DNA from: Rhizobium sp. 007
GTDB lineage: Bacteria > Pseudomonadota > Alphaproteobacteria > Rhizobiales > Rhizobiaceae
Assembly: GCF_015353075.1 (NCBI RefSeq)
Contig: NZ_CP064187.1
Coordinates: forward strand, 2,914,001 to 2,978,000
DNA: 64,000 nt
Direction: 5' to 3'
Shown: in pieces, positions 7,272 through 52,615 of the stretch
How the letters are laid out: each line of letters opens with the position of its first letter
Numbering within the stretch: the first letter of the stretch is position 1
Program-made: the position numbers and the translations under genes
Notes under the pieces: generated by a model
The model's input: only the letters and a program-made list of their open reading frames with translations
Databases searched by the model: none
What the model was told of the DNA's origin: nothing

Positions 7272-7739
7272 GTGGAGCTTTCTGGCATTCAGTCGAAACG
7301 GTGTATCGGGGCGTCCGGGGACATTCAGTTTCCGGAGACTGAAGTCTTTGTGCCAAGGGTCGAAGCGGCCTGGAGTGCTCTGCAGCGCCAATATGGCGGT
7401 CAGATAAGCGAGGCGGAGATTGACTATTTCTTTGCTTGTTTCGTGTTTGGGCTGACCACACCGGCTTATACCAATCAGGACCCATCCCTCCATTTCGAGG
7501 TCTGCCGCGCTCTTGTGTTGATCAAGCTGCCGCCGGACCGGGCTGACGCTGCACTGTATTCAGTGCCAGCGCCTACTCAGGCAGGGGTGGAAAGTGCCCG
7601 CGAGCTGATCGAGAGCAAAGGGGTGAAGATGGGGCGTACCCTGCAAGACGAGAGGTCAGATCCAGAAATCTTTTCAACGGCCAAGGCGAGCTCCGCGGCA
7701 TCGGCGCGCCTGGGCAGCAACGAGGGAAATGCACAATGA
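7272..7739 (+). CDS. Hypothetical protein coupled to the adhesin gene
   Basis: 155 aa, GTG start. The sequence is soluble-looking, with no signal peptide or membrane segment, and contains the segment EIDYFFACFVFGLTTPAYTN. Its TGA overlaps the ATG of the adhesin gene (ATGA at 7736-7739), which indicates translational coupling. It lies directly downstream of the repeat element copy B and is the first gene of the adhesin/IalB run. I do not recognise a family. A cytoplasmic co-factor or regulator of adhesin production is conceivable, but nothing in the sequence proves it. Confidence 0.65.
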   Translation: MELSGIQSKRCIGASGDIQFPETEVFVPRVEAAWSALQRQYGGQISEAEIDYFFACFVFGLTTPAYTNQDPSLHFEVCRALVLIKLPPDRADAALYSVPAPTQAGVESARELIESKGVKMGRTLQDERSDPEIFSTAKASSAASARLGSNEGNAQ

Positions 7740-10700: not shown

Positions 10701-12487
10701 CCGCCACCGGCCAGATCGCGGCCGGCCCGACCAACTTCATCGAATACAACACGACCGACAAGACGCTGCTTGGCGCGGTCTCGGTGGGCACGGCGACCTC
10801 GTACCGGCAGATCACCAATGTCGCGGACGGCACGAACGCCCAGGACGCGGTAACCATTCGCCAGCTCCAGGGCGCCATCGCCTCGGTTGCAGCCACGCCG
10901 AGCATGTATTTCCATGCCAATTCGACTGCTGGCGATTCGCTCGCTGTGGGGGCCGAATCGATTGCCGTCGGTCCGACGACAGTGGTCAACGGTGATAACG
11001 GCATCGGCATCGGCAATGGCGCGATCGTCGACCAGGTAGCGCCTGGCGGAACGGCGATCGGTCAGAACGCGCATGTCATGTTGGCCGACGGTATCGCGCT
11101 TGGCACGAATTCGACGGCGGCGGGCGTTCAGTCCGTTGCGCTCGGTGCGGGCGCGACGAGCAACCACATCAACAGCGTCGCCCTCGGTGCGCAATCGATC
11201 ACCACGGTAGGCGCGCAGGCGAACTACGCCGGCTTTGGCCTTGCCGCCTTGCAGAACTCGGCCGGCGAGGTGTCCTTCGGCTCGGCCGGCTCGGAACGCA
11301 AGCTGACGAATCTTGCAGCCGGTTCGGCCGATACGGATGGCGTGAATGTCAGCCAGTTGAAAGGCCTCGGCACCCAGATCACCAACCAGTTTGGCGGCGG
11401 ATCGGTCCTCAACCCGGACGGCACCATCACCGGACCGACCTACAATATTCAGGGCGGCAGCTATACGACCGTCTACGACGGGTTCACCGCCGTGGATGCG
11501 AGCCTTACCAATCTCACCAATCAGATCAATGGCGGCGGCATCAAATACTTCCATGCCAATTCCACGTTGGCCGATTCCTCCGCGACCGGCACGGATAGCG
11601 TCGCGATCGGCCCGCAAAGCGTAGCCAGCGGCACGGACAGCCTGGCTGCCGGCCACGGCGCAACCGCCGCCGGTCAAGGCGCCGTCGCTCTCGGTGAAGG
11701 AGCACAGGCAAACAATGCCAACGATGTCGCCCTCGGTTCGGGTTCCGTGACGGAGGCGGCCGTCGGTACGTCAGGGACCACAATTCGGGGCACCCGGTAC
11801 GACTTTGCGGGAACCGCGCCCGTCGGGACCGTCAGTGTTGGCGCCGATGGCGCGGAAAGGACCGTGACAAACGTTGCGGCCGGGCGCATTTCCGCCGATA
11901 GCACCGACGCCATCAATGGTTCCCAGCTCCACGCGACCAATACGGCAATCGAGGATTTGCAAGGCGGCATTGGCAATATCAACGACAGTGCGGTTTTCTA
12001 TGACGTCAACCCGGATGGCAGCAAGAAGAACAGCATCACCCTGCAGGGCGGTGACGTAAATGCACCGGTCGTCATCTCGAATGTCGGCAGGGGCGTTGCC
12101 AACACCGATGCGGTCAATGTCGCTCAATTGAACCAGAGCTTCACCGAGGCAAAGTCCTACACCGACAATCGCGTGAATTATGCCATTGAATCGGCCAACA
12201 GTTATACCGACCAGAAGTTCGGCCAGTTGAACCGGGAGATGGGCAACATCCGCTCGGAGGCCAGGGCGGCGGCCGCAATTGGACTTGCAGCAGCTTCCCT
12301 CCGCTATGACGATCGCCCAGGCAAGCTGAGCGTGGCGATGGGCGGCGGTTTCTGGAAGGGCGAAGGCGCGCTTGCCTTCGGTGCCGGCTACACCAGCGAA
12401 GACGGACGCGTTCGAGCCAACCTTTCCGGCACGGTCGCCGACGGTGATGTCGGTGTGGGTGCGGGTCTCAGCTTCACCTTGAACTGA
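7736..12487 (+). CDS. Trimeric autotransporter adhesin (YadA/Hia-like)
   Basis: 1583 aa surface adhesin, type Vc secretion. An extended N-region of about 45 residues precedes a hydrophobic signal sequence ending PAHA at about residue 77. Residues 80-720 form a long YadA-like head of 14-residue repeats (SVALG, AIAIG, AVALG motifs). Neck/connector motifs such as ITNVAAGRI, IQNVAAGQL, LTNLAAGSA, VTNVAAGRI and ISNVGRGVA occur near residues 732, 855, 1189, 1378 and 1447, with DAINGSQL or DAVNVxQL partners. The module YFHANS then DSxAxGTDSVAIGP occurs three times with variation. The last about 90 residues are the YadA beta-barrel anchor (RSEARAAAAIGLAAASLRYD, LSVAMGGGFWKGEGALAFG). The product should trimerise and mediate attachment to a surface or host. 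Confidence 0.95.
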   Translation: MIERIEGHTQRMFRFGFANDRMAGESGDRSRRRRLMAVLRMAHRVLGFRRKGLGLGTLGAGGGLAAIAIGLATPAHAQYAAGGGTASAANAVAVGNGTQANGANSVALGTSNSATGNASIAIGYSMGVNGLNAIGIGVFAGATGVNALAVGGNAQATADGASAIGVNSVARAGAAAFGLNARADGVNSTAIGYVTRATGLRATALGFGATASGLDAIAQGNSAVASNQNAIAIGFQANATAVNAINLGNRTVAGMGALQESAIALGTDVLASQVDAIAVGRQSRATAGSAVALGVNAAASGAASMALGSGSVANNTNAVALGAATQATGAGSVAVGTFSVASGANSAAVGNATASGARSFAGGRVANAAGTESAAVGFSSNAAGISSSAFGPVANASADFSLALGNQSVSSGFGSVAAGSGAQATQVGTIAVGNNALATAARATALGVSASTSGQSALAIGDTANASAQNAISAGTNAIASGVNSIYLGSRNPLGNAGALGLDSIAVGTEVRATQTDTTAIGHVAMALGVRATAIGSNALATETNATALGYNSFAGGSDAIAMGTSAAAETADSVAIGTGANALGGKAVAIGAGNVAYGDGAVSIGDPSYASGTGAFTGGANNIANADGTASATAANAANGAVAIGNNNVAIGQGSVALGNFSRAGAAGAVAFGDAAVANNADDVALGSGSVTAAAVGTANTTINGTVYTFAGTATPASTVSVGAAGAERTITNVAAGRINGGSTDAINGSQLFATNQAVDSLATTVNNINTGGGIKYFHANSALPDSQALGTDSVAIGPNAVANNAGDVAIGLNSVSGTTTAVGGATIGSTAYTFAGATPAGAFSVGALGAERQIQNVAAGQLSGSSTDAVNGSQLFATNQQVTQNTTDIANLGNTIGDIGTTINNIAGDTSTIFTDANGDGIRYVRTNDRTLPVSDSSAQGIGSTAVGYDAAAIADNSLALGRDSQATIDGGIALGSGSISDRALAPATGQIAAGPTNFIEYNTTDKTLLGAVSVGTATSYRQITNVADGTNAQDAVTIRQLQGAIASVAATPSMYFHANSTAGDSLAVGAESIAVGPTTVVNGDNGIGIGNGAIVDQVAPGGTAIGQNAHVMLADGIALGTNSTAAGVQSVALGAGATSNHINSVALGAQSITTVGAQANYAGFGLAALQNSAGEVSFGSAGSERKLTNLAAGSADTDGVNVSQLKGLGTQITNQFGGGSVLNPDGTITGPTYNIQGGSYTTVYDGFTAVDASLTNLTNQINGGGIKYFHANSTLADSSATGTDSVAIGPQSVASGTDSLAAGHGATAAGQGAVALGEGAQANNANDVALGSGSVTEAAVGTSGTTIRGTRYDFAGTAPVGTVSVGADGAERTVTNVAAGRISADSTDAINGSQLHATNTAIEDLQGGIGNINDSAVFYDVNPDGSKKNSITLQGGDVNAPVVISNVGRGVANTDAVNVAQLNQSFTEAKSYTDNRVNYAIESANSYTDQKFGQLNREMGNIRSEARAAAAIGLAAASLRYDDRPGKLSVAMGGGFWKGEGALAFGAGYTSEDGRVRANLSGTVADGDVGVGAGLSFTLN

Positions 12488-12494
12488 GGCCGGC

Positions 12495-13070
12495 ATGTTG
12501 AAGAGAGCGGGTTCTGGCTCCTCGGTTTTCATTGCATGCCTTTTCCTGTCCGGCCCACAGGCGGCCGGACAGGAGGCAGCTTCCTCAGGTTATCGAATCA
12601 GGCCGCCCGAGGTCGCGGTCCCTGGTGACGTAACTCTCGGCCAATACCAGAGAATGATCAGACCGTTCGAGAATTGGACGCTGATCTGCGACGAAAATCT
12701 GAAAGCCCGCCAAAGGGTCTGCAACGTCACTCAGACGATTGAAAACCAGGCAGGACAGCTCGCATTCAGTTGGTCACTTGCCGCCACGCCGGAGGGCAAG
12801 CCCTACATGATCTTGCGGACCGCACCGGTCGCCAAGAGCGACGGCCTTGTCTCGCTGAAATTCGAGGGTCGGAAAGAGCCGGTAAACGTCCAGCTCGACG
12901 GATGCAATCAGGCGGTCTGCATCGGAATGCTGCCGGTCGGCCCCATTATGCGCGAGCAGATCTCGAAGAACTCGGCATCGACGGTGTCCTATTCGATAAG
13001 AGACGGGAGAACCGTCAGCGTAACCGCAACCCTCAGGGGCCTTTCCAAAGCCGTTGAGGCGATCAATTAA
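12495..13070 (+). CDS. Invasion-associated locus B (IalB) family protein 1
   Basis: 191 aa. A signal peptide (SSVFIACLFLSGPQAAGQ) is followed by an IalB domain: ENWTLICDENLKARQRVCNV, a central beta-rich part, then LDGCNQAVCIGMLPV and LRGLSKAVEAI at the C-terminus. The two cysteine pairs are typical of periplasmic IalB proteins, named for Bartonella invasion locus B. The molecular function of the family is unknown. It starts 8 bp after the adhesin stop and is very likely co-transcribed. A second, diverged IalB protein ends the same run at 14276-15004. A role in adhesin export, stability or host contact is inferred only from position. Confidence 0.88.
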   Translation: MLKRAGSGSSVFIACLFLSGPQAAGQEAASSGYRIRPPEVAVPGDVTLGQYQRMIRPFENWTLICDENLKARQRVCNVTQTIENQAGQLAFSWSLAATPEGKPYMILRTAPVAKSDGLVSLKFEGRKEPVNVQLDGCNQAVCIGMLPVGPIMREQISKNSASTVSYSIRDGRTVSVTATLRGLSKAVEAIN

Positions 13071-21173: not shown

Positions 21174-21242
21174 CCTAATGTGTGCCCAGGAGCCATAGAG
21201 TTCCATAGATACCGAAGCGCTATCACAAAAAGGGAACAGTTC

Positions 21243-22499
21243 ATGTTGAAGAGAAGTCTTGCTGCTTTAGCCATCTCCGTCGGCATCTGGACCGGGAACG
21301 CCCATGCGGAAACCATTTCCGTATTCTGCTCGCCGACCGAGTTCGAGCTTTGTACGACGGTCGCCAATGCCTGGAAGGAAAAGACCGGCAACGAGGCGAA
21401 GATCAACAAGATGCCGGCTTTGCTGGATGATGCCATCCCGCTTTATCAGCAGCTGCTGGCGTCGAAATCCAAGGACATCGACGTCCTGTTCCTGGACGTC
21501 ATTTGGCTCGGCATGTTCAAAAACAACCTGCTCGACCTGAAGACCCTGGTGCCGCAGGCAGACCAGGACAAGCATTTCGCCTCGACGCTCGGCGCAGCCA
21601 AGCTTGACGGCAAGCTGGTCGCCATGCCCGCCTATATGGATGTCGGGCTGATGTATTATCGCAAGGATCTTCTGGAGAAATACGGCAAGCAGCCGCCGAA
21701 GACCTGGGACGAGCTTGCAGCCAGTGCAAAGGAAATCCAGGACAAGGAACGCGCCGCCGGCAATGGCGAGATGTGGGGCTATGCCTGGCAGGCCAAGAGC
21801 TACGAAGGTCTTACCTGCGACGCTATCGAACTGATCGCCTCAAATGGCGGCGGCACGATCATCTCGGACGATGGCAAGGTGACGATCGACAATCCGCAGG
21901 CAGCCGAAGCGATAGAGAAGGCCAAAGGCTGGATCGGCAGCATCAGCCCGGAAGGCGTTCTGAACTACGATGAGGAAGCCTCCCGCGCGATCTTCGAGTC
22001 CGGGAACGCGGTTTTCCATCGCAACTGGCCTTATGTTTGGGGAACGACCCACCAGAAAGGCAGTGCTGTCATCGACAAGGTCGGCGTGATGCCGCTTCCC
22101 GTCGGCAAGGAGGGCCAAAAGTCGAGCGGCTGCCTCGGCCCGATGTATTACGGCGTTTCAAAGTTCAGTGCCAAGCCCGAGGTTGCGGCCGATTTCGTCA
22201 ACTTCATCACCGCACCCGACATGCAGAAGATGCGGGCGATCGAGGCGGCCTACAACCCGTCGATCCAGGCGCTTTACAGCGATCCGGACGTGCTGGCAAA
22301 ATTGCCCTTCCTCAAGGACAACCAGCAGGCATTCGCCGATAGCGCAAGCCGTCCCTCAGGCTATACCGGCACGAGCTATAACCGCGTTTCGCAAGCCTTC
22401 TATCGCTCGGTCCACGACATGCTTTCAGGCGGCGGCGATATCAAGGCAGGGCTGAGCGCCCTTGCAGCGCGACTTGAGAAGCTGAAGGAGAGCCGTTGA
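21243..22499 (+). CDS. Sugar ABC transporter substrate-binding protein 1
   Basis: 418 aa from the ATG at 21243. A signal peptide (LKRSLAALAISVGIWTGNAHA) leads to a family 1 extracellular solute-binding protein resembling the trehalose/maltose-binding ThuE group: FCSPTEFELCTTVANAWKEK, DVLFLDVIWLGMF, MPAYMDVGLMYYRKDLLEKY and PPKTWDELAASAKEIQ. It captures a sugar in the periplasm and delivers it to the membrane complex encoded downstream. The stop is followed by a strong hairpin (22511-22556) before the ATPase gene, a usual device for higher expression of the binding protein. An oligosaccharide substrate of the trehalose/maltose type is likely but not certain. Confidence 0.92.
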   Translation: MLKRSLAALAISVGIWTGNAHAETISVFCSPTEFELCTTVANAWKEKTGNEAKINKMPALLDDAIPLYQQLLASKSKDIDVLFLDVIWLGMFKNNLLDLKTLVPQADQDKHFASTLGAAKLDGKLVAMPAYMDVGLMYYRKDLLEKYGKQPPKTWDELAASAKEIQDKERAAGNGEMWGYAWQAKSYEGLTCDAIELIASNGGGTIISDDGKVTIDNPQAAEAIEKAKGWIGSISPEGVLNYDEEASRAIFESGNAVFHRNWPYVWGTTHQKGSAVIDKVGVMPLPVGKEGQKSSGCLGPMYYGVSKFSAKPEVAADFVNFITAPDMQKMRAIEAAYNPSIQALYSDPDVLAKLPFLKDNQQAFADSASRPSGYTGTSYNRVSQAFYRSVHDMLSGGGDIKAGLSALAARLEKLKESR

Positions 22500-41200: not shown

Positions 41201-41344
41201 TCTTGGAGTGCGGTGAAGATGGCGAGTGGACGTGGACGGAGCCTGACGCGCTGGCGCTGCGACGCAGGTGAATCAGTTGTCGAAGGCTCGCAACAGGTTT
41301 ATTTTGTCCGCTCTTCGGTGCCCACGGGGGAAGGTGGTGCAGAG

Positions 41345-42013
41345 ATGCTGGTTAAAGACGTAATGATCACGAAGGTTGTCGGAGTATCGCCGGACAACAG
41401 TGTTCGGCGAGCCGCCGAGATCATGCTCGCCAATCACGTCAGTGGTGTTCCAGTTATTGACGATGCCGGTCAGCTCGTCGGGATCATCAGCGAGGGCGAT
41501 CTGTTACGGAGAACCGAGTTGGGCCGGGGAGCCATTGCCGACCTTGGGGACGAGGTCATTTCCGCCGAGGAGAGAGCCAAGGCTTACGTTAAAAGCAATG
41601 CTTGGAGGGTGGCCGACGTAATGAGCCGCAACCCGGTCGTCGTGGAAGAGGACGCGTCTCTGGTGAGCGTCTCTGGGTTGATGCAAGAGCATGGCGTCAA
41701 GCGCATTCCGGTTATGAAAGGCGGCGCGTTGATCGGCATCGTCAGTCGTGCGGACCTTCTGAAAGCAATTGTTACGGCGCACCACGATGAAACCGCGCCG
41801 GGTGACGAGGCCATCCGTCGCAGCATTTCGATCCGCCTCAGCGAAAATACGGGCCTCGAAGGAAAAGACATGACCGTGACCGTCATCGACGGTGTCGCTC
41901 ACCTATGGGGAAACGTTGATACAGCAGAGTGCAGGAAGGCAGCGCGTGTAGCGGCCGAGAGTGTCCGCGGCGTGAGAGGAGTGGTTGAGCATTTTCCCGA
42001 AGACGGTCCGTGA
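41345..42013 (+). CDS. CBS-domain pair with BON domain
   Basis: 222 aa from the ATG at 41345 with GGTGCAGAG upstream; a longer in-frame version starting at 41213 is less likely. CBS 1 (about 1-58) includes MLVKDVMITKVVGVSPDNSV and GVPVIDDAGQLVGIISEGDL. CBS 2 (about 88-142) includes VADVMSRNPVVVEEDASLV and VKRIPVMKGGALIGIVSRAD. The C-terminal BON domain (about 155-220) has MTVTVIDGVAHLWGNVDTAE. CBS pairs bind adenosine nucleotides and act as energy sensors. In rhizobia such proteins are often made under low oxygen together with phosphoketolase, which lies next here. Confidence 0.9.
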   Translation: MLVKDVMITKVVGVSPDNSVRRAAEIMLANHVSGVPVIDDAGQLVGIISEGDLLRRTELGRGAIADLGDEVISAEERAKAYVKSNAWRVADVMSRNPVVVEEDASLVSVSGLMQEHGVKRIPVMKGGALIGIVSRADLLKAIVTAHHDETAPGDEAIRRSISIRLSENTGLEGKDMTVTVIDGVAHLWGNVDTAECRKAARVAAESVRGVRGVVEHFPEDGP

Positions 42014-42428: not shown

Positions 42429-44894
42429 ATGGTTTCGCTTAAGACGGCAGGAAAAGCAAAGGTCGCCAGAAACGAGAAAATAGCAACGGGCGACCCCCTT
42501 TCGGCGAAAGAATTGCAGTCGATGGACGCCTATTGGCGCGCATCGAACTATCTGTCCGTGGGGCAGATCTATCTTCTCGACAATCCACTTCTGAAAGAAC
42601 CGTTAAAGCGCGAGCACATAAAGCCAAGGCTGCTTGGTCACTGGGGCACGTCGCCAGGTTTGAACATGCTCTACGCCCACCTCAATCGCGTTATCAAACG
42701 CGACGATCTCAACATGATCTACGTCATCGGGCCGGGACATGGCGGACCATCGTTGGTCGCACACGCCTACCTAGAAGGCACCTACAGCGAAGTTTATCCC
42801 AATATTGGCCAAGACGCGGAGGGCATGAGGAGGCTGTTCAAACAGTTCAGCTTCCCTGGCGGCATCCCGAGCCACGTTGCTCCGGAAACACCCGGCAGCA
42901 TCCACGAGGGCGGCGAACTGGGCTACGCCCTCAGCCACGCCTACGGGGCGGCGTTCGATAACCCGGATCTGATCGTCGCCTGCGTTGTCGGCGACGGAGA
43001 AGCCGAAACGGGGCCGCTTGCAACAGGCTGGCAAAGCAACAAGTTCCTAAATCCTGCTCGCGACGGCTGCGTGCTGCCTATCCTGCACTTAAACGGCTAC
43101 AAGATCGCCAATCCGTGCTTCCTAGCCCGCATTCCCCGCGACGAGCTGCGGAAATTTTTCGAAGGCATGGGCTACACGCCGTATTTCGTCGAGGGTGAAG
43201 ACCCCACGTACGTGCACCAACAATTAGCCGGCGCACTCGATACCGCAATGGCGGATATCCAGGAAATCTGGGCAGATGCCCGCGACAGGGGCAATGTGAA
43301 ACGTCCCATGTGGCCGATGATCGTTTTCCGCACACCCAAGGGCTGGACCTGCCCGCCTAAGATAGACGGCAAGAAATCCGAGGGCTACTGGCGGTCGCAC
43401 CAGGTGCCGATGGGCGACATGGACAAGCCGGAGCACATCCGTATTCTCGAAGGATGGATGAAGAGCTACCGCCCCGAAGAACTGTTTGACGACGGTGGCC
43501 GGTTCAAACCGGAGCTGGCAGCGCTTGCTCCTGCGGGGCATCGCCGAATGAGCGACAACCCGCATGCCAACGGCGGCTTGCTGCTGCGAGACCTGAAGAT
43601 GCCCGACTTCCAGGATTACGCGGTCTCCGTGCCGCGCCCTGGGGCAACCATCGCCGAGTCTGCGCGGACGATGGGCGCGTTTCTTCGTGATATCATGAAG
43701 ATGAACATGGAGAGCAAGAACTTCCGCCTGTTCAGTCCTGATGAAAACAACTCGAATCGCTGGCAGGATGTGCTGGAAGTCACCAACCGCTGCTACATGG
43801 CGGATATCTATCCGGATGATGATCATCTGGCGCCGGACGGTCGGGTGATGGAGGTGCTCAGCGAGCATCAATGCCAGGGCTGGCTGGAAGGCTACCTGGT
43901 AACCGGCCGGCATGGCTTCTTTTCCTGCTATGAAGCCTTCATCCACATCATCGATTCCATGTTCAACCAGCACGCCAAATGGCTGAAGGTGTGCAATCAC
44001 ATTCCATGGCGGCGACCGATCGCCTCGCTTAACTACTTCCTGAGCTCCCATGTCTGGCGGCAAGACCACAATGGCTTCAGCCATCAAGACCCGGGGTTCA
44101 TCGATCACGTGGTCAACAAGAAGGCAGACGTCGTGCGGATATATCTGCCGCCGGATGCCAATACACTTCTCTCGGTAACCGATCACTGCCTGCGCAGCCG
44201 CAACTACATCAACGTCGTTGTCGCCGGCAAGCAGCCTGCCCCGCAGTGGCTCACAATGGATCAGGCCATCAAGCATTGCTATGAGGGCCTTGGTATCTGG
44301 GAATGGGCGAGCAACGACAAAGGTGCCGAACCTGACGTCGTGATGGCATGTTGCGGCGACGTTCCAACGCTCGAGACACTCGCGGCAGTCGAGCTGATCC
44401 GGGAGCATCTGCCCGAGCTGAAAGTCCGCGTCATCAATGTGGTGAACCTGATGAAGCTCCAGCCGCCATCCGAGCATCCGCACGGGCTGCCGGATCGCGA
44501 TTTTGATGCCCTCTTCACCAAGAACAAGCCGATCATCTTCGCTTTCCATGGCTATCCATGGCTTATCCACCGGCTCACCTACCGCCGCACCAATCACGGC
44601 AATCTGCACGTCCGCGGCTACAAGGAAGAGGGAACGACGACGACGCCGTTCGACATGGTAGTCCTGAATGATATGGACCGCTTCCATCTGGTCGAGGACG
44701 TAATCGACCGGCTGCCGCAACTCGGCGCACGCGCGGCCTATTTCAAACAGGCAATTCACGAAAAGCTGGTCGAACATAGACAATATATCGAGAAGTACGG
44801 CGACGACATGCCCGCAATAAGCGGCTGGAAGTGGGGCGCGAAAGGTAAGTCAGGAGCCCGCACTAGAACCTCGACTGAAGGGGACAATGCTTGA
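42429..44894 (+). CDS. xfp: Phosphoketolase (xylulose-5-P/fructose-6-P)
   Basis: 821 aa, full length. GAGGAGGAGG lies before the ATG. It splits xylulose 5-phosphate or fructose 6-phosphate with inorganic phosphate to give acetyl phosphate plus glyceraldehyde 3-phosphate or erythrose 4-phosphate, using thiamine diphosphate. Landmarks are [58 protein letters not shown], the ThDP/Mg motif [20 protein letters not shown] and [20 protein letters not shown]. Acetyl phosphate can be used by the acetate kinase and phosphotransacetylase encoded 6-8 kb downstream. The GH94 gene follows after 30 bp, so the two are probably co-transcribed. Confidence 0.97.
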
Positions 44895-44924
44895 GCGACG
44901 GCATCTAACCGAACGGAGGTTCCA

Positions 44925-47900
44925 GTGGCAGCGAGAGCGCCCGAGGCAGCACGACAAAATAGCGTCGCGGAGTTGGCGTATCCGGGCTCCGCGGTCGCGT
45001 TGTTTTCCAACGATCGGTACAGTGTCCTGGTCACAGCCGCCGGGGCGGGTTATGGAACGTGGCAAGGCCTCGACATTACACGGTGGCGCGAGGACAGCAG
45101 CCGTGATTGCTGGGGCCAATTTTGTTACGTTCGGGATCTAACCGGGAACGACCTCTGGTCCATCGGAAAGCAGCCATTATTTCGGCCTTCAATTGTCTAC
45201 GAGCACGCCTTTCACGGAGACAGGGCCGAGTTCCGCTGTCATGCCGGTGACATCGAAATCGTCTGGAAAATCTGTGTCGCGCCCGATGTGGACGCGGAAG
45301 TGCGTATGCTCACGGTCACGAATAATGGGGCGCGGGAGCGAACCCTCGAACTGACAAGCTATGCCGAAGTCTGCCTGAACAATCGTCGTGCGGACATGGC
45401 GCATCCGGGTTTTGCCAAGCTTTTTGTCGAAACACGGTACGACGGGGCGACAGGCGCCCTATTTGCGCGCCGCAGGCCCCGTGCCGCTGCGGAAAAGGCC
45501 ACTTGGGCAGTTCACGTTTCCTCATCGAACCTGCCGCCTTCCCAAGAGGTCCAATATGAAACTGATCGGCTGAGATTTCTTGGCCGGGGCCGAACGACAG
45601 CCAGCCCCGTGATATTCGACGCGGGTGGGTCGCTTTCCGGGACGACCGGCCCGGTCCTCGACCCGATTTTCTGTTTGCGACGGACGGTTCATCTGACCCC
45701 AGGCACCGAAGCGCGCGTCGCCTTCGTCACAGGCGCTGCGCACGACCAGCCAGCCGTGCAGCTCATCGCCGAAAGATACGCCAATATCGATGCGGCCGAA
45801 CGAGCGTTCTCCGAAGCATCGGATAGGTATCAAAGCGAGCTTCAGACGTTGAGCCTTACGCCTGATGATGTCTCGCTGTTCAATCGGCTGGCCGGGAGTG
45901 TCGTATTTGCGAACCCGGCCACGCGGCAAGTGACTGCGCTGGAGAGCGATCGATTGGATCGGGCGGCTTTGTGGGCTCATGGTATCTCCGGCGACCTCCC
46001 GATCGTGCTGGTCCGCGCGAATGGCGACAGGGATCATACCCTCATTCGTCAGGTAATGATGGGCCACGACTTCGCTCGTCGGAAAGGCTTGGGATTTGAC
46101 CTCGTCCTGCTTGACGAGGGCGGCGCAGCCAGCGCCAAGCGACTAGTCGAAGAGCTGCAATCTGGCCCGCAGGCCGAAGTGATTGGTACGCCCGGCGGGA
46201 TCTTTGTCCTTTCCGAGCCCGATACCGAAAGCGATCACTTGAGGACCATCGCTGCGGCGGCGCGCATAGTCCTGCTGGGAAGCGGCGGCGAACTTGTCGA
46301 TCAGCTCAACCGGCCCTTCCCCGTCCCGTTACCTCCTTCGCAGGCTTTAGCCGCACGGGTAAGCGAGCGACCCAAGGCCCGCCGTCCTTACTCGGTCGAG
46401 GATTTGCAGCACTGGAACGAATTCGGAGGCTTCACACCCGACGGACGCGAGTATGTCGTGCTCGTGGACGCGATCAGACCACAAGCCCCCGTGCTGCCGC
46501 CGGCGCCTTGGACCAACGTGATCGCAAACCCTGACTTTGGCTGTCTTACGACTGAAGCCGGTCTTGGCTACACTTGGTCGGAAAACAGCCAGATGAACCG
46601 GCTGACGCCGTGGTCGAACGATCCGGTTACGGATGCGCCGGGCGAGGTCGTTTATTTGCGCGACGAGGAAACCGGAGATGTCTGGACGCCGACGCCGCTG
46701 CCTCTCGGTCCCGGTGCGGTGGTGACTGTTCGTCACGGCCAAGGTTACAGCCGGTATGCAAGCCACAGCCGCCATCTCAATCAGGAGCTGACGGTATCGG
46801 TTCCGCCTAGTGATCCGGTCAAGATCATGCATCTCAGGCTTAGCAACGACGGCACCCGAGCTCGGCACGTGACCGCAACCTATTTCGCCGAGTGGGTGCT
46901 TGGGACCCACCGCGAAGAGACAGCAACACGGATCGTCTGCGAGCGGGATGCCAGATCGGGTGCAATCATGGCCAAGAACCCCTGGGCCGGAGATTTTGCC
47001 GGGAAGCTGGCTTTTGCAGCCGCCAGTCAGCCGACGAGGTCGGCAACGTCCGACCGCACGGAGTTTCTGGGCAAATACGGTTCGGTTTTTCAGCCCTTAG
47101 CGTTGGGGCGAACCAATCTGGCAGAACGTTTTGGCCCGTTGCTGGATCCCTGCGCCGCGTTGATGGTGGATATCTCCCTGCCCCCCGGCGAAAGCAGGGA
47201 GGTTGTCTTTGTACTTGGAGAGGCTGCCGGCCCCGATGAAGTCAGCAGGCTCGTTCATGAGTATACCGACCGCGAACGCGCGGCCGCAAGCCTGTCGGCG
47301 ATCTCCCGCCAGTGGGATAACATTCTGAACTCGATCCAGGTCTCGACGCCGGACGCAGGCTTGAACTTGATGATGAATCGCTGGTTGCTGTACCAGGTCC
47401 TGGCATGCCGCGTCTGGGCGCGCACGTCCAATTATCAGTCCGGCGGTGCTTACGGTTTCAGGGATCAGCTTCAGGACGTGATGGCACTGGTCTATAGTAC
47501 ACCGAACGAGACCCGCTCCCACATCCTGCGATCGGCAGCACGCCAATTTGAGGAGGGGGACGTCCAGCACTGGTGGCATCCTCCATCCGGCATCGGCGTG
47601 CGCACCCGGATCACCGACGACTTGTATTTCCTGCCGCTTGTCGTTCACCACTACGTGTCCACGACAGGCGACCTTCAACTGCTTGACGAGATGGTGCCCT
47701 ACATCACGTCACCGCTGCTGAAGGACGACCAGGAGGAAGACTTCAACCAGCCGGCGCCCAGCGAGCAGTCCGGCACCGTCTATGAGCACTGCGTCCGTGC
47801 GCTGGAGCGTGGTTACCGCTTGGGCAGTCACGGTCTTCCCCTGATGGGAACAGGCGACTGGAACGACGGCATGAACAAGGTCGGCGCGGAAGGCAGGGGA

Positions 47901-48818
47901 GAAAGCGTCTGGAACGGCTGGTTCTTTCTCACGGTCCTCAAATCATTTGCCACGATTTCAGCGTCACGGGGAGATCAAAGCCGTGCCGGCTGGTGCCGTG
48001 AACGGGCCGAAGCTTTGCGCACAGCTCTTGAAGCCAACGCCTGGGACGGTGGCTGGTATCGCCGCGCCTATTTTGACGATGGCACGCCGCTCGGGTCGTC
48101 CCTGAACGACGAATGCCAGATCGACGCCATCCCGCAGGCCTGGGCTGTCATTTCGGGCAAAGCCGATGCTGGACGAGCTTCAAAAGCGATGCGTGCGGTC
48201 TACGACCGGCTGGTACGCCAGGAGGACGGGCTGATCAAACTCTTCGACCCGCCTTTTGACGAAGGCTTGCTGCAGCCGGGCTACATCAAGGGCTATGTCC
48301 CCGGCATCCGTGAAAATGGCGGCCAATACACGCATGCGGCAACCTGGATTGTCTGGGCGACGGCTTTGCAGGGCGACGGCGATCTCGCCTTAAAGCTTTG
48401 GAACCTGATCAATCCGATTTGTCATAGCGCGACGAGAGGTCAAGTCGAACGCTACAAAGTGGAACCATATGCGGTCAGCGCCGATATCTATGGCGCGCCC
48501 CCACACACCGGGCGCGGTGGATGGACCTGGTACACCGGATCGGCCAGTTGGTTCTACCGCGTCGCGCTCGAGGCGATCCTCGGCTTTCGCCAGCAAGGGC
48601 CGTCTCTGCGGTTCGAGCCGTGCGTTCCGGCGGGCTGGCCGGCCTATGAAATCGCATACCAATATGGATCAGCGACCTACCGCATCCAATTCGACAACAC
48701 GAAGGGCATCGGCCGAGGCGTGCACTCCGTCACGCTGGACGGTGAACCAGTCGCGAACGAAACCGTTCCGCTTGTGGAAGACGGACGTACGCATGACGTC
48801 CACATTATAGTTGGTTAG
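44925..48818 (+). CDS. GH94-type protein, NdvB/ChvB C-terminal-like (glucan phosphorylase-like)
   Basis: 1297 aa, GTG start with GGAGG 5 nt upstream. It contains a beta-sandwich GH94 N-terminal module at about 15-270, a linker region (PIVLVRANGDRDHTLIRQVM), a second sandwich at about 530-790 (WSENSQMNRLTPWSNDPV) and an (alpha/alpha)6 catalytic domain at about 800-1250. The general-acid motif is GTGDWNDGMNKVG, with RDQLQDVMALVYS and TWYTGSASWFYRVAL as further conserved parts. This equals the C-terminal half of cyclic beta-1,2-glucan synthase without its membrane glycosyltransferase. In Brucella Cgs this domain phosphorolyses beta-1,2-glucooligosaccharides. A free phosphorylase releasing glucose 1-phosphate is the likely role; no signal peptide is seen. 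Confidence 0.88.
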   Translation: MAARAPEAARQNSVAELAYPGSAVALFSNDRYSVLVTAAGAGYGTWQGLDITRWREDSSRDCWGQFCYVRDLTGNDLWSIGKQPLFRPSIVYEHAFHGDRAEFRCHAGDIEIVWKICVAPDVDAEVRMLTVTNNGARERTLELTSYAEVCLNNRRADMAHPGFAKLFVETRYDGATGALFARRRPRAAAEKATWAVHVSSSNLPPSQEVQYETDRLRFLGRGRTTASPVIFDAGGSLSGTTGPVLDPIFCLRRTVHLTPGTEARVAFVTGAAHDQPAVQLIAERYANIDAAERAFSEASDRYQSELQTLSLTPDDVSLFNRLAGSVVFANPATRQVTALESDRLDRAALWAHGISGDLPIVLVRANGDRDHTLIRQVMMGHDFARRKGLGFDLVLLDEGGAASAKRLVEELQSGPQAEVIGTPGGIFVLSEPDTESDHLRTIAAAARIVLLGSGGELVDQLNRPFPVPLPPSQALAARVSERPKARRPYSVEDLQHWNEFGGFTPDGREYVVLVDAIRPQAPVLPPAPWTNVIANPDFGCLTTEAGLGYTWSENSQMNRLTPWSNDPVTDAPGEVVYLRDEETGDVWTPTPLPLGPGAVVTVRHGQGYSRYASHSRHLNQELTVSVPPSDPVKIMHLRLSNDGTRARHVTATYFAEWVLGTHREETATRIVCERDARSGAIMAKNPWAGDFAGKLAFAAASQPTRSATSDRTEFLGKYGSVFQPLALGRTNLAERFGPLLDPCAALMVDISLPPGESREVVFVLGEAAGPDEVSRLVHEYTDRERAAASLSAISRQWDNILNSIQVSTPDAGLNLMMNRWLLYQVLACRVWARTSNYQSGGAYGFRDQLQDVMALVYSTPNETRSHILRSAARQFEEGDVQHWWHPPSGIGVRTRITDDLYFLPLVVHHYVSTTGDLQLLDEMVPYITSPLLKDDQEEDFNQPAPSEQSGTVYEHCVRALERGYRLGSHGLPLMGTGDWNDGMNKVGAEGRGESVWNGWFFLTVLKSFATISASRGDQSRAGWCRERAEALRTALEANAWDGGWYRRAYFDDGTPLGSSLNDECQIDAIPQAWAVISGKADAGRASKAMRAVYDRLVRQEDGLIKLFDPPFDEGLLQPGYIKGYVPGIRENGGQYTHAATWIVWATALQGDGDLALKLWNLINPICHSATRGQVERYKVEPYAVSADIYGAPPHTGRGGWTWYTGSASWFYRVALEAILGFRQQGPSLRFEPCVPAGWPAYEIAYQYGSATYRIQFDNTKGIGRGVHSVTLDGEPVANETVPLVEDGRTHDVHIIVG

Positions 48819-48823
48819 CGGCC

Positions 48824-50143
48824 ATGCCCGTAACGCTCTCGACGGACGCTGCTCTCGACCGCATCCCAACGGACCAGGACCTCGCTCGGCTGCAATTTAC
48901 GACACTGTTGTACTATCTCCAATGCACGAACCCGGACAACGGTCTGGTTCGCGACAAAACCGAACCGAATGCCCCGGCAAGCATCGCGGCAATTGGCATG
49001 GCCCTGGCGACAATCCCCGTTGTTGTCGAGCGCGGGGTAATCATCCGCGAATTCGCTGCAAAGATCACCCGCAAGCGAATGCGGTTTTTGATGGAATGCC
49101 CGCAGGGGCCAGAGCCCGATGCATCCGGGTACATGGGCTTTTTTTATCATTTTCTGGACATCGAAACGGGCCGCCGGGCCTGGCAATGCGAATTGTCCAC
49201 CATCGATTCGGCTTTCCTGTTCGCCGGAGCCCTGACCGCAGCGACCTATTTTGATGGCGATACGGCCGATGAGGCAGAAATCCGCCAGCTTGCGACGGCG
49301 CTTTACGAGCGAGCCGACTGGATGTGGGCTTGCGATGGCGGCCCCACTTTGACGCATGGCTGGCACCCGGAAAGCGGGTTTATTCCCTATCGTTGGCGCG
49401 GTTACGATGAGGGTCTGCTGCTGTATATTCTCGGGTTGGGATCGCCAACCCATCCACTGCCTCCGGAGAGTTACGCCGCCTACACCGCGAGCTATGAATG
49501 GAGAAACATCTATGGTCGCGAATTGCTTTATTCGGGGCCGCTTTTTACCCACCAGTTGTCGCACATGTGGGTAGACTTTCGAGGCATTCGTGACGAGTTC
49601 ATGCGCCAGCACCACAGCGACTACTTTGAAAACAGCCGGCAGGCATCATTCGTGCAGCAGGAATATGCAATTCGCAACCCAATGCGTTTTGCGGGCTACG
49701 GGGAATATTGTTGGGGGTTTACCGCCTGCGACGGACCAGGTTGGGGTAAGCGGGCGATCAATGGCGTCGACCGGGAGTTCTTCGACTACATCGCCCGTGG
49801 CGCGCCCTTCGGACCTGACGATGGCACCGTCGCGCCATGGGCCGTTGTCGCCTCGCTGCCGTTCGCGCCGGAGATCGTCGTGCCGACAGTCCTCAACTTT
49901 GCGCGAATGAAGCTCGGCATGACGCGCCTTTACGGTTTCAAACCGTCGTTCAACCAGACCTATGCCGTGGAAAACAGTCCGACCGGATGGTGGGTGAGTC
50001 CCTATCACTTTGGCATTGACCAAGGCCCGGTGGTGCTGATGATCGAAAACTACCGAACCGGTTTGCTCTGGAACATCATGCGTCGATGCAAGCCTCTGGT
50101 GATCGGATTGCGTCGCGCCGGATTTTCAGGGGGGTGGCTTTAG
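48824..50143 (+). CDS. GH144-like endo-beta-1,2-glucanase (glycoamylase-domain protein)
   Basis: 439 aa. It starts only 6 bp after the GH94 gene and is surely in the same operon. The fold is the glycoamylase-like (alpha/alpha)6 barrel (PF10091 type): FTTLLYYLQCTNPDNGLVRD, SIAAIGMALATIPVVVERG, GYMGFFYHFLDIETGRRAWQ, ELSTIDSAFLFAGAL, YRWRGYDEGLLLYILGLGSP, YSGPLFTHQLSHMWVDFRGI and DGTVAPWAVVASLPFAPEIV. GH144 endo-beta-1,2-glucanases belong here, and the acidic residues in these motifs are candidates for catalysis. It lacks a visible signal peptide, so action on internal or periplasmic glucan depends on unseen export. The pairing with GH94 points to beta-1,2-glucan as substrate. Confidence 0.85.
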   Translation: MPVTLSTDAALDRIPTDQDLARLQFTTLLYYLQCTNPDNGLVRDKTEPNAPASIAAIGMALATIPVVVERGVIIREFAAKITRKRMRFLMECPQGPEPDASGYMGFFYHFLDIETGRRAWQCELSTIDSAFLFAGALTAATYFDGDTADEAEIRQLATALYERADWMWACDGGPTLTHGWHPESGFIPYRWRGYDEGLLLYILGLGSPTHPLPPESYAAYTASYEWRNIYGRELLYSGPLFTHQLSHMWVDFRGIRDEFMRQHHSDYFENSRQASFVQQEYAIRNPMRFAGYGEYCWGFTACDGPGWGKRAINGVDREFFDYIARGAPFGPDDGTVAPWAVVASLPFAPEIVVPTVLNFARMKLGMTRLYGFKPSFNQTYAVENSPTGWWVSPYHFGIDQGPVVLMIENYRTGLLWNIMRRCKPLVIGLRRAGFSGGWL

Positions 50144-50292
50144 GTTGGATGCCGCTTGGCTTCTATCGTCTTACGCCCGCAGATGCCGACTCCCGCCTTT
50201 TTTGTCAATTGGTATCTTCCGGGATGCGAAGGAGGGGTGGGTACTTCAACTTGGCGGGATGGGTGCCGGCGGCTGCTTTGTTCGCCGCATGC
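50144..50292. other. Non-coding stretch between the glucanase gene and a fabI-like tail
   Basis: About 150 bp downstream of the glucanase stop; no gene or clear terminator was seen. Transcription of the two operons converges in the 330-bp region 50144-50476. Confidence 0.35.
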
Positions 50293-50370
50293 TCAGACGA
50301 CAATATGATAGCTGCCGTCCACATAGAGCACCTGCCCGGTGAACAGGCACGCCGTCGTGGGCGACGAAAA
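50293..50370 (-). pseudogene. C-terminal tail relic of an SDR/enoyl-ACP reductase
   Basis: On the minus strand, ACLFTGQVLYVDGSYHIVV ends at a stop (50293-50295). TGQVLYVDGGYHI is the usual C-terminus of FabI-type enoyl-ACP reductases and some SDRs. The upstream part of the reading frame is not recognisable. In several rhizobia a fabI-like gene follows the phosphotransacetylase-acetate kinase pair, so this is probably what remains of it downstream of ackA. Confidence 0.55.
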
Positions 50371-50476
50371 AAGGGGGTGGCAACGCTTCCGTGCCGTCAT
50401 CAATGACGCAGCTTCTTGGGCCGAAAGGGTTGATCGTGTGCTCACATTGGGTTGCTTCTCCTGTGAGACAGGGGTT

Positions 50477-51655
50477 TCAGGATGCCATTATGAGTGCAAG
50501 CGTGTGGCGGGCGATCATCAGTTCCTCATCCGTCGGCAGGACGTAGAGCGCGACGCGGCTCGCAGGAGTGGAAATGAGCACCGCGCCCGCCTCGTTGGCC
50601 GCGGGATCGAGTTCGGCTCCCAGCCAGGCAAGCCGTTCGGCGATGCGGGCGCGGATTGGCGGCGAATTCTCCCCGACGCCCGCCGTAAAGACGAAAGCGT
50701 CGAGACCTCCAAGCGCGGCGGCAAGCGTGCCGGCGCTGAGCGCACAGCGATGGACGAAGTGATCGATCGCGAATGCCGCACGTGGGTCATCGCTGACAAG
50801 AAGATCGCGCATGTCGCCGGAAATGCCTGACAGTCCCTTCAGACCGGACGCCCTGTAGAGAAGGTCCGTAACCTCTCCCGTAGTCATGCCTCTGTGGTCG
50901 AGCAGATACAGCACGACGCCGGGATCCATCTGGCCCGGCCGGGTGCTCATCGGCAAGCCATCGAGTGCCGTGAATCCCATCGTTGTTTCGAGGCTGCGTC
51001 CGGCCTTCAGCGCGCACATAGACGCGCCGCTGCCTAGATGGGCAACGATGATGCGTCCACCGGCGATACCGGGCGCGACTTCGGCCAACTGCTCGGCAAT
51101 GTATTCGTAGGACAGGCCATGAAAGCCGTATCGACGCACTCCATGCTCGTAGTAGTGCCAGGGCAAGGCGTAGCAATCCGTATGTGGGGCGTGGCCGCGA
51201 TGGAAAGCGGTGTCGAAACAGGCGACCTGCGGCACATCCGGATTGATTTCCATCGCCAGGCGGATCGGCGCGAGGTTGTTCGGCTGGTGCAGCGGAGCAA
51301 GCTCCTGGAAAGTCGCAAGCTTGTCGAGCGTGTCGCGGTCAATGAGGATCGGTTTCGCATAGTCAGGGCCGCCATGGACGACGCGATGACCAGTAGCGCG
51401 GAGCGTGAAACCCTTAAGGGTCAGCAACCACGCACGGGTTTCAGCAATTGCCGCCGGCAGGTGGTCGACTACCTCTGGCGCATATCGGCGATCAACCAGG
51501 ACCGTTCCGTCGGCGGCGCTCGCCGCTAGACGAGGCCGTACTCCGATGCCATCGATCTGACCGCGAATGCAGCGTTTGGGGCCAGTGTCGGCGATCTCGA
51601 GGATCTGGAATTTCAGGCTTGACGAGCCGGCGTTGACGACAAGGATCGCGTCCAT
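50477..51655 (-). CDS. ackA: Acetate kinase
   Basis: 392 aa, full length. It interconverts acetyl phosphate plus ADP and acetate plus ATP. ASKHA-fold landmarks are [103 protein letters not shown] and [18 protein letters not shown]. The start lies 3 bp after the stop of the phosphotransacetylase gene (TGAACCATG), so the two form an operon. With phosphoketolase upstream on the other strand it can turn acetyl phosphate into ATP. Confidence 0.97.
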
Positions 51656-51658
51656 GGT

Positions 51659-52615
51659 TCAGGCCGCCACTTGTGTCGCACGCGGCCGGGCGGCGGCGGA
51701 GAGCGTAGCGACCGCGCACGAAGCCAGACGGCTGCGCACCGAGTCGGCACGCGAGGTCAGCACGATGGGCACACGCGCGCCAAGCACGATTCCCGCGGCA
51801 TCCGCATGGGCGAGGAATGTCAAGTTCTTGGCCAGCATGTTCCCCGCCTCAAGGTCGGGCACGACGAGGATCTGTGCCCGGCCAGCGACGGGCGACGTGA
51901 GCCCTTTGATGCGAGCGGCCTCCGGGCTGATCGCATTGTCGAATGCGAGCGGGCCATCGAGCACGCCGCCGGTGATCTGGCCGCGTTCAGCCATCTTGCA
52001 TAGCGCTGCGGCTTCGATGGTCGACGGTATTTTTGTCGTCACGGTCTCGACGGCGGAAAGGATCGCCACACGAGGCAGACCGAGCCCGACCGTCGTCCAG
52101 AGGTCGATTGCGTTTTGCACGATGTCACGTTTGACATCAAGGTCGGGAGAGATGTTGATCGCCGCGTCGGTGATGAAGAGCGTGTCGGCGTGGCCAGGCA
52201 CATCCATCACGAAGACATGGCTGACGCGGCGTTCTGTGCGCAGGCCGGTGGCGGAGGCCGTAACATCGCGCATCAGTTCGTCCGTATGCAGGCTGCCCTT
52301 CATGAGGAGCACGCCCTTTCCCTCTCGTAGCAGGACGACAGCCTTCGCCGCAGCGGCGTGGCTATGTGGAACGTCGACGATTTCGTAGTCTTTCAGATCA
52401 AGCCCGTTCTCCGCGGCCACCGCCTGAATTTTTGCGGCGGGGCCTACCAGGACAGGTACGATCAGTCTGTTCTCGGCGGCTTCAAGCGCGCCCCGCAAGG
52501 ACGTCTCGTCGCAGGGATGCGCCACGATCGTGACGGCAGGCGCAACCTCCCGCGCAGCGGAAATCAGCCCGTCGTACTTTGACTGCTCAGGTTTGGATGT
52601 GGAAAGGTCGATCAC
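51659..52615 (-). CDS. Phosphate acetyltransferase (Pta/Ptb family)
   Basis: 318 aa from the GTG at 52613-52615 (VIDLSTSKPEQSKYDGLISA), chosen because AGGGAG lies 7 nt upstream; the in-frame extension further upstream runs through an opposite-strand oxidase relic. Landmarks are IVAHPCDETSLRGALEAAEN, LLMKGSLHTDELMRDVTA, RVSHVFVMDVPGHADTLFIT, DAAINISPDLDVKRDIVQNA and DGPLAFDNAISPEAARIKG. It interconverts acetyl phosphate and acetyl-CoA. It is the short form without the N-terminal MaoC-like domain. Directly upstream of ackA, it links phosphoketolase output to acetyl-CoA, a precursor of lipids and polyhydroxybutyrate. Confidence 0.92.
   Translation of the reverse strand: MIDLSTSKPEQSKYDGLISAAREVAPAVTIVAHPCDETSLRGALEAAENRLIVPVLVGPAAKIQAVAAENGLDLKDYEIVDVPHSHAAAAKAVVLLREGKGVLLMKGSLHTDELMRDVTASATGLRTERRVSHVFVMDVPGHADTLFITDAAINISPDLDVKRDIVQNAIDLWTTVGLGLPRVAILSAVETVTTKIPSTIEAAALCKMAERGQITGGVLDGPLAFDNAISPEAARIKGLTSPVAGRAQILVVPDLEAGNMLAKNLTFLAHADAAGIVLGARVPIVLTSRADSVRSRLASCAVATLSAAARPRATQVAA

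Follow-up and report, generated by a model that had tools for sequence, protein, structure and literature searches.

A stand-alone cyclic glucan synthase-type GH94 gene linked to phosphoketolase and GH144 glucanase genes in Rhizobium, a candidate module for spending beta-1,2-glucan

A 64,000-nucleotide stretch of Rhizobium sp. 007 (positions 2914001-2978000 of contig 1 in a 7.6-Mb genome; hereafter the window) carries the phosphoketolase gene xfp, followed on the same strand by genes for a stand-alone GH94 protein and a GH144-like beta-1,2-glucanase, with genes for acetate kinase (ackA) and phosphate acetyltransferase (pta) lying convergently beside them. By its sequence, the GH94 protein is the C-terminal half of a cyclic glucan synthase (CGS), and the arrangement with xfp and the GH144 gene, which recurs in relatives, is not chance. 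On balance the genes appear to encode a cytosolic module for beta-1,2-glucan phosphorolysis wired to the phosphoketolase energy route, a reading that we favor with moderate confidence. The five genes are as follows.

42429-44894, + strand: xfp, phosphoketolase, 821 aa; Pfam XFP_N, XFP, and XFP_C, and NCBIfam PRK05261 subfamilies
44925-48818, + strand: stand-alone GH94 protein, 1297 aa; supersandwich and catalytic domains (Pfam)
48824-50143, + strand: GH144-like beta-1,2-glucanase, 439 aa; PF10091 (Pfam), 373.8 bits to XcSGL (8xul)
50477-51655, - strand: ackA, acetate kinase, convergent with the operon; PF00871, and TIGR00016 at 349 bits (cut-off, 293.4)
51659-52615, - strand: pta, phosphate acetyltransferase, GTG start; PF01515, and PRK11890 at 520.5 (cut-off, 413)

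The original prediction had placed these five genes here, and open reading frames and family matches bore out all of them. The xfp product scored above their own cut-offs with four of six PRK05261 subfamilies (NCBIfam) and belongs to the phosphoketolase family, while the longest frame of pta extends to 52741. The intergenic gaps of 30 nt (xfp to GH94) and 5 nt (GH94 to GH144), all on one strand, make a single xfp-GH94-GH144 transcript likely; the layout of a three-gene operon with convergent Pta-AckA stands as first described, with the operon itself graded as probable.

The GH94 protein holds GH94 domains only. In a search of solved chains, its residues 10-1247 aligned with residues 1527-2775 of Agrobacterium Cgs (8rf9; 1018.6 bits, E 0), and these 1,238 residues span the phosphorylase half, running across the Rossmann-like (RFL) insert, with domain borders as given in PMC10901819 (papers are cited here by PMC number). 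Disaccharide phosphorylases align to approximately the last 800 residues of the window protein. Its counterpart in Rhizobium mongolense subsp. loessense is 95% identical. The domains and the two acidic residues of interest are placed as follows.

46500-47219, + strand: GH94 supersandwich domain, residues 526-765; PF06165, 497.1 bits
47313-48584, + strand: GH94 catalytic domain, residues 797-1220; PF17167, 409.8 bits
47463-47465, + strand: D847 codon (Cgs D2393; LpSOGP D631 via the conserved Arg-Asp motif)
47865-47867, + strand: D981 codon, catalytic acid (Cgs D2528; LpSOGP D760 via the W-x-D motif)

Both acidic residues that were mutated in Cgs (D2393 and D2528) are thus kept, as D847 and D981. 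R846, D847, W979, D981, E1130, and Y1135 were found in all 39 stand-alone and all 63 CGS alignment rows (the rows omit L030, L039, L126, L132, and L143; L numbers denote loci and G numbers genomes). H1137 was present in 39/39 stand-alone and 61/63 CGS rows, and T1204 in 38 of the 39 stand-alone rows (Ser once), with Ser in 3 of the 63 CGS rows. Counterparts of the glucose 1-phosphate-binding residues of LpSOGP (PMC5309861) were assigned as R/D, W/D, E, and Y/H by motif spacing, with no superposition, and the window protein carries the catalytic acid together with the subsite -1 and phosphate residues. In Cgs itself, added phosphate shortened the products, showing that the phosphorylase domain phosphorolyses beta-1,2-glucan (PMC10901819).

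Two other identities for the gene were discarded. Assignment to the characterized 1,2-beta-oligoglucan phosphorylases (SOGP) was ruled out, as the protein is nearest to Cgs along its whole length (E 0, versus E 8e-4 for SOGP 5h3z). A truncated CGS or an assembly artifact was also ruled out, as closed frames of 1283-1367 aa are present in 33 of the 34 stand-alone loci found among relatives; the doubtful case is L039, with a 1050-aa frame, a stop inside the match, and a contig end. The longest GH94 frame of L083, a locus in a Syntrophaceae metagenome-assembled genome (MAG), overlaps the end of GH144 and was likewise counted against artifact. In four Rhizobium genomes (G001, G004, G005, and G032), a weak extra GH94 match falls in frames of 1116-1126 aa, close to the 1122 aa of LpSOGP; these may possibly be true 1,2-beta-oligoglucan phosphorylases.

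The best solved relative of the PF10091 protein is XcSGL from Xanthomonas (8xul, 373.8 bits), and two candidate catalytic positions of the window protein lie at the following codons.

49205-49207, + strand: D128 codon (CpSGL E142 position, candidate general base); D in 37/37 rows
49409-49411, + strand: E196 codon (XcSGL E239, proposed general acid position); E in 37/37 rows

The E, F, and Y of the SGL clan (XcSGL E239, F286, and Y367) correspond to E196, F241, and Y322 and are kept in 37/37 rows, of which two (L001 and L004) repeat the window gene and two (L003 and L005) come from paralogs in the same genome; together with the acidic residue at the CpSGL E142 position, the window protein has the residues of GH144 and its clan. 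The 8xul chain bears Gln at the E239 position. XcSGL is active on beta-1,2-glucan and inactive on carboxymethyl cellulose, barley beta-glucan, glucomannan, xyloglucan, and lichenan (PMC12102758). Endo action of the window enzyme is a guess, as exo-acting members also exist in GH144 (PMC11842490).

Besides the window gene, PF10091 had three hits in the window genome, one of them inside CGS. A second GH144 copy (L086:8963-10724; G000 C1, ~215-217 kb), 98% identical to the window gene, sits behind a GH94 remnant (83-column match, 47%) near a LuxR-type response regulator. The locus is apparently a second cassette that has decayed, its GH144 having been copied recently. A third stand-alone PF10091 gene (L087:8593-9924; G000 C1, ~3.727 Mb) is 46% identical, has no signal peptide by eye, and adjoins genes resembling an ABC transporter by eye.

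To compare gene neighborhoods, genome contigs were searched with the GH94 protein, and the best 80 of 344 relatives were kept, giving 79 loci: 34 stand-alone GH94 genes, 43 CGS frames of >1900 aa, and two cut at a contig start. Neighbors were counted within fetched flanks of ≤10 kb, relatives are biased towards the query, and ≥3 kb was available on both sides at only 26 of the 43 CGS loci. Phosphoketolase lay near 29/34 stand-alone genes versus 0/43 CGS genes, and GH144 near 32/34 (absent near L018 and L039) versus 0/43; AckA and Pta lay near 13/34 and 12/34 stand-alone genes, respectively, and each near 0/43 CGS genes. These counts mark xfp-GH94-GH144 as a tight unit with Pta-AckA as a frequent but loose neighbor. 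Three of the 29 loci (L007, L014, and L018) show only a contig-edge piece of XFP, and the five with no XFP nearby are L008 and L039 (short contigs), L031 (11.9-kb contig), L025, and L033.

The linkage is kept in Rhizobium, Phyllobacterium, Sinorhizobium/Ensifer, Mesorhizobium, Pseudaminobacter, and Mycoplana, and it extends beyond close relatives to L083 and a Variovorax plasmid, where the genes stand in other orders and, in Variovorax, on two strands. Class-wide sampling of 385 Alphaproteobacteria revealed no further stand-alone gene at E <= 1e-250, a strict cut at which 13 other genomes passed with CGS-size frames. Among the best 60 of 174 plasmid records, GH94 was carried by plasmids of S. 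meliloti Rm41, SM11, GR4, BL225C, and RU11/001, and pSymA of strain 1021, present in the collection, was not among these 60. Plasmids of Escherichia coli, Salmonella, Serratia, Erwinia, Rahnella, and Pseudomonas also gave GH94/CGS-like matches (H46-H60), at ~42% identity.

A split arrangement was found in L015, L017, L018, L022, and L032, where a class I aldolase gene precedes GH94 (as does a histidine phosphatase gene in L015 and L022) and xfp lies apart, accompanied by GH144 except in L018 and on the other strand except in L022. Across 36 clustered loci, each neighbor cluster being named from one scanned representative, the recurrent neighbors were AdhP (15), ABC_membrane_2 (9), EutBC (9), DUF3141 (8), class I aldolase (6, including L083), and histidine phosphatase (6). 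Short XFP remnants upstream of GH94 (L013:9710-9949 and L022:9032-9298), with a full xfp 5.2 and 3.6 kb away, respectively, could be traces of cassette duplication. A further neighbor lies 5' of xfp in the window.

41213-42013, + strand: CBS-BON domain protein, start codon uncertain; PF00571 and PF04972

This gene also lies near 22/34 stand-alone GH94 loci and 0/43 CGS loci. Also upstream in the window, and divergent, lies a gene whose product has an adenylate/guanylate cyclase domain and matches Cache weakly.

Outside the rhizobia, genes of the same pathway are gathered more fully. L083 has GH144-GH94-HAD-AckA-PRC-Xfp-RpiB-class I aldolase-Pgi on one strand, the aldolase being named through clustering with a scanned relative. 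GH144 of the L083 type was found at E <= 1e-60 in 3/149 genomes of its order, L083 included; the others are G1040, with Tal-GH144-GH94 (GH94 in pieces in different frames), and the 3.0-Mb genome G1072, with Tal-GH144-PRC-Xfp-DUF2254-Pgi. In the phylum of L083, 45/297 genomes matched its GH94 at E <= 1e-60, nearly all with CGS-size or contig-cut frames, and one other closed stand-alone GH94 was followed (L114). On Variovorax WDL1 plasmid 3, a closed 1341-aa GH94 frame, missing from the plasmid gene table, is followed by gnd, zwf, GH15, HAD, tal, tkt, pgm, a second GH144, mercuric reductase, ackA, and xfp (the last two on the other strand) and then by a universal stress protein gene and GH144; adhP lies on the upstream side, beyond copper genes. 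Polaromonas CJ2 has tal-pgm-xfp-ackA-tkt-HAD-gnd-aldolase-GH144, with HAD and gnd on the other strand.

Plasmid relatives of GH144 were taken from the best 60 of 110 records, and of 11 contexts chosen besides the S. meliloti plasmids, three (Variovorax, Polaromonas, and Criblamydia) had xfp with GH144. Genes for thymidine phosphorylase and ribose-phosphate pyrophosphokinase occur near GH144 on the Criblamydia plasmid (L136), where they accompany xfp, ackA, and glgP, and on Sinorhizobium M14 pSinB (L141); there, phosphorolysis of nucleosides may be a further supply for this phosphoketolase route.

Phylogenetic analysis suggested that stand-alone genes arose more than once. With FastTree, 37 stand-alone genes formed one clade in a 104-row tree. 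In a 49-row tree, the rhizobial genes and L031, from an Acidobacteriota MAG, formed one clade, with planctomycete CGS as its neighbors; L083 and Variovorax fell in a clade with 10 CGS, and L114 and L126 formed a third group; the stand-alone/CGS label needs three changes on this tree. Forcing the rhizobial and L031 genes together with L083 cost a delta lnL (log likelihood) of 557 (approximately unbiased [AU] test, p 9e-48), under LG+G4 with a quick search. One origin of all stand-alone GH94 genes was rejected (AU p 9e-48 with 14 rows and 3e-52 with all 16), as was a single origin of the rhizobial/Acidobacteriota rows with Variovorax (AU p 7e-11); the groups were named after the first 104-row tree, so these p values flatter. 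Row L119, probably a wrong-frame translation, was dropped before the AU test. The direction of change is not readable from the counts alone, and it is CGS that surrounds the stand-alone genes on the tree; together with the separate clades, this makes it probable that the synthase half of CGS was lost at least twice, in separate lineages, next to xfp. The stand-alone GH94 would thus probably have arisen by detachment of the CGS phosphorylase half, and xfp and GH144 are neighbors in two of the three stand-alone groups.

The place of action was considered next to the claim, made in the original prediction, that periplasmic glucan is recycled. The top N-terminal hydropathy was 0.91 for the window GH144 protein and 1.45 for GH94 (1.45 also for AckA); three window proteins whose signal peptides are recognizable by eye reached 1.85-2.14. 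By this crude test, in which maxima reach 1.97 across 32 GH144 rows and 1.89 across 36 GH94 rows, no signal peptide was evident in window GH94 or GH144. All soluble domains of Cgs, including the phosphorylase domain, are cytosolic (PMC10901819), which together with the lack of evident signal peptides makes a cytosolic glucan the likely substrate. No importer gene lies within the xfp-GH94-GH144 unit, and use of exported periplasmic glucan appears doubtful; the periplasmic claim is weakened on all three counts.

The proposed route would begin with GH144, which, judging from its family, would open or cut cyclic or linear beta-1,2-glucan to oligosaccharides. GH94 and inorganic phosphate would then release alpha-glucose 1-phosphate from the non-reducing end without ATP, as suggested by its family and kept residues. 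Phosphoglucomutase and glucose-6-phosphate isomerase would yield fructose 6-phosphate (an established pathway, with gene context in other genomes), which phosphoketolase would cleave to acetyl phosphate and erythrose 4-phosphate. By further established steps, acetate kinase would form ATP or Pta would form acetyl-CoA, with transaldolase, transketolase, and aldolase recycling the rest. The operon in the window is without pgm, pgi, tal, and tkt; three PGM/PMM-family genes lie elsewhere in the genome, and a second phosphoketolase was noted outside the cassette (G000:C1:1253956-1255038). In other genomes, loci with pgm, pgi, tal, tkt, rpiB, zwf, gnd, or aldolase as additional members strengthen the pathway reading, which as a proposal about gene content appears well supported and better backed than the window alone allows. 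Of the pathway as first put forward, the glucanase, phosphorylase, phosphoketolase, and acetate kinase steps hold up by homology, residues, and context, and the periplasmic source and stress triggers do not.

CGS (frames of 2570-2914 aa) is also encoded in 32 of the 33 genomes with a stand-alone GH94, the exception being the Acidobacteriota MAG G024 (L031), and the window genome has one CGS (a separate 2845-aa frame) and one stand-alone GH94. This co-occurrence fits recycling of the cell's own glucan, without proving it.

Several observations weigh against the phosphorolysis-phosphoketolase reading. L033 and L025 have GH94 and GH144 (only a 67-residue match in L025) with no xfp in the flanks, and none was found across the whole L031 genome. 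Partners vary elsewhere: no GH94-family gene was found anywhere in the G1072 genome or within the Polaromonas stretch (42000-85671), and there was no xfp in 8 of the 11 plasmid GH144 stretches. In Variovorax (L143), Glu replaces the catalytic Asp of GH94. On the Criblamydia plasmid, GH144, ackA, and xfp are paired with an alpha-glucan phosphorylase, showing that an xfp module need not go with beta-1,2-glucan. Finally, GH94 is a trimming domain in CGS, which leaves room for a role in synthesis.

Of the other explanations, the one that survives best, although we consider it unlikely, is clearance: the pair would remove cytosolic cyclic or linear beta-1,2-glucan when its content must fall, as on osmotic upshift, and phosphoketolase would merely dispose of sugar phosphate or supply acetyl units and erythrose 4-phosphate. 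The co-encoded CGS in 32/33 genomes fits this too, but to our knowledge nearly all Rhizobiaceae make CGS, so its co-occurrence there says little. In a k-mer genome-wide association study (GWAS) of NaCl tolerance in 49 S. meliloti strains, one row lists COG0406, COG2971, COG3957, and COG3459 (PMC12855168); three of these (COG0406, COG3957, and COG3459) correspond in kind to the histidine phosphatase, phosphoketolase, and GH94 whose genes adjoin on S. meliloti plasmids. We infer that these hits are this cassette; in the literature surveyed, this study alone may concern it, without naming it as one. However, the salt-sensitive RU11/001 of the same study carries GH94 and GH144 genes; mere presence therefore gives no tolerance, the GWAS lead is weakened, and our estimate for clearance was lowered slightly. 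The ackA, pgi, pgm, tal, and tkt neighbors elsewhere also look like energy metabolism.

Less probable again is scavenging, in which imported beta-1,2-glucooligosaccharides shed by other bacteria would be cut by GH144 and GH94 in the cytosol. The stand-alone CGS-type GH94 genes of G207 (L114) and G810 (L126) lie beside an F5/8-type C protein gene, in G810 with GH144 and a TonB receptor also nearby, and neither genome yielded a further GH94-family gene; here the same type of enzyme seems to serve the import and consumption of external glucan. In G207 xfp lies on another contig, and none was found in G810. In the phylum of L031, 44/247 genomes matched at E <= 1e-250, with stand-alone frames of ~1300 aa in L031 and G810. 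The rhizobial three-gene unit, by contrast, has no recurrent transporter; an ABC_membrane_2 protein occurs in 9/36 loci, and nothing links the solute-binding protein gene at 21180-22499, 20 kb away in the window, to the operon.

A helper in synthesis ranks slightly lower still, as an improbable role in which the detached phosphorylase would trim CGS chains or, in reverse, make glucan from glucose 1-phosphate. The reactions of GH94 enzymes can run in both directions (PMC5309861), and inside Cgs the domain sets chain length (PMC10901819). Against this, GH94 sits with a glucanase and phosphoketolase, genes found near none of the 43 CGS loci. High cytosolic phosphate favors phosphorolysis. Action of both glycoside enzymes on another glucan, for which the glgP of the Criblamydia module speaks, is very improbable, given that GH94 is nearest to Cgs along its length with intact subsite -1 residues and, among solved chains, XcSGL comes closest to the glucanase.

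Control by low oxygen or phosphate, also part of the original prediction, found no support in this genome. Consensus scans revealed no exact FNR-like site (TTGA-N6-TCAA) in the window and no conserved FNR/FixK or Pho box across 27 sequences upstream of xfp, where sites were scattered. Exact FNR-like sites were present in two of the 27 (L015 and L017) and one-mismatch sites in five, the window among them; Pho-like sites (<=4/14 mismatches) occurred in seven, the best with two mismatches (L027). The exact site TTGACTTCGATCAA in L015 and L017, both Sinorhizobium/Ensifer with the split arrangement, suggests that some Sinorhizobium cassette copies might be FNR controlled. Three sigma-70-like promoters were found versus 3.9 expected, and 13 terminator-like sites versus 8.3 expected, none of them between 50143 and 50477. 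Published expression records include AckA and Pta 118-228-fold up in NGR234 bacteroids (PMC3732241), phosphoketolase bll2518 in a B. diazoefficiens microoxia table (PMC6515984), RLV_1404 listed higher in pea than in lentil bacteroids (PMC7950203), and M. huakuii xfp listed with 0.24 (PMC3973600); none is shown to be a cassette copy, and none was used as evidence. Elsewhere in the window are a DDE-type transposase gene (976-2796) and, at 7736-13070, genes for a 1583-aa YadA-type trimeric autotransporter and then an IalB-family protein.

A wider and tentative possibility, which we hold to be doubtful though ahead of the alternatives above, is that beta-1,2-glucan is a mobilizable cytosolic carbon and energy reserve like glycogen, made by CGS and spent by the freed phosphorylase, GH144, and the phosphoketolase route. 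Acetyl phosphate and ATP would then be drawn when respiration or growth is limited. In the part of the open-access literature surveyed, the components are described and no paper links phosphoketolase with the breakdown of beta-1,2-glucan; in one search of it, phosphoketolase came up in a single paper, on Trichoderma. The cyclic glucan is regarded there as an envelope and symbiosis factor, with no rhizobial energy-yielding breakdown route named. The cassette in nodule bacteria makes it directly testable whether this glucan is ever spent, and the occurrence of the partnership in unrelated bacteria suggests that the polymer, beyond its place in the envelope, can also be used as fuel. The separation of the phosphorylase half from CGS in distant lineages would be an unusual case of evolution pointing at function. 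That 1021 pSymA is not among the plasmid records listed for this GH94 may be why the cassette went unnoticed, and it provides a natural comparison.

Among known systems, the Cgs family (NdvB/ChvB/Cgs) is aligned with the window GH94 along the phosphorylase half, but there GH94 is fused in a synthase, whereas here it is a separate gene beside xfp and GH144, without GT84, cyclase, or membrane part. SOGP (Listeria Lin1839 and LpSOGP) shares the proposed reaction and the motif residues, while the window protein has the RFL insert; the Listeria SOGP cluster has a beta-glucosidase (PMC4757417), and the window context has phosphoketolase instead. GH144 enzymes (CpSGL and XcSGL) have the same clan residues, but XcSGL was cloned minus its N-terminal signal peptide (PMC12102758), and none is evident in the window protein. 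Beta-1,2-glucan utilization loci (sgl clusters) share GH144 and a GH94, and L126 resembles one; the window pair differs in being probably cytosolic and linked to acetyl phosphate metabolism. The phosphoketolase or bifid shunt (xfp, ackA, tal, and tkt) has the same enzymes and likely flux, with several of its genes in the L083, Variovorax, and Polaromonas loci, and differs in that glucose 1-phosphate would here come from beta-1,2-glucan.

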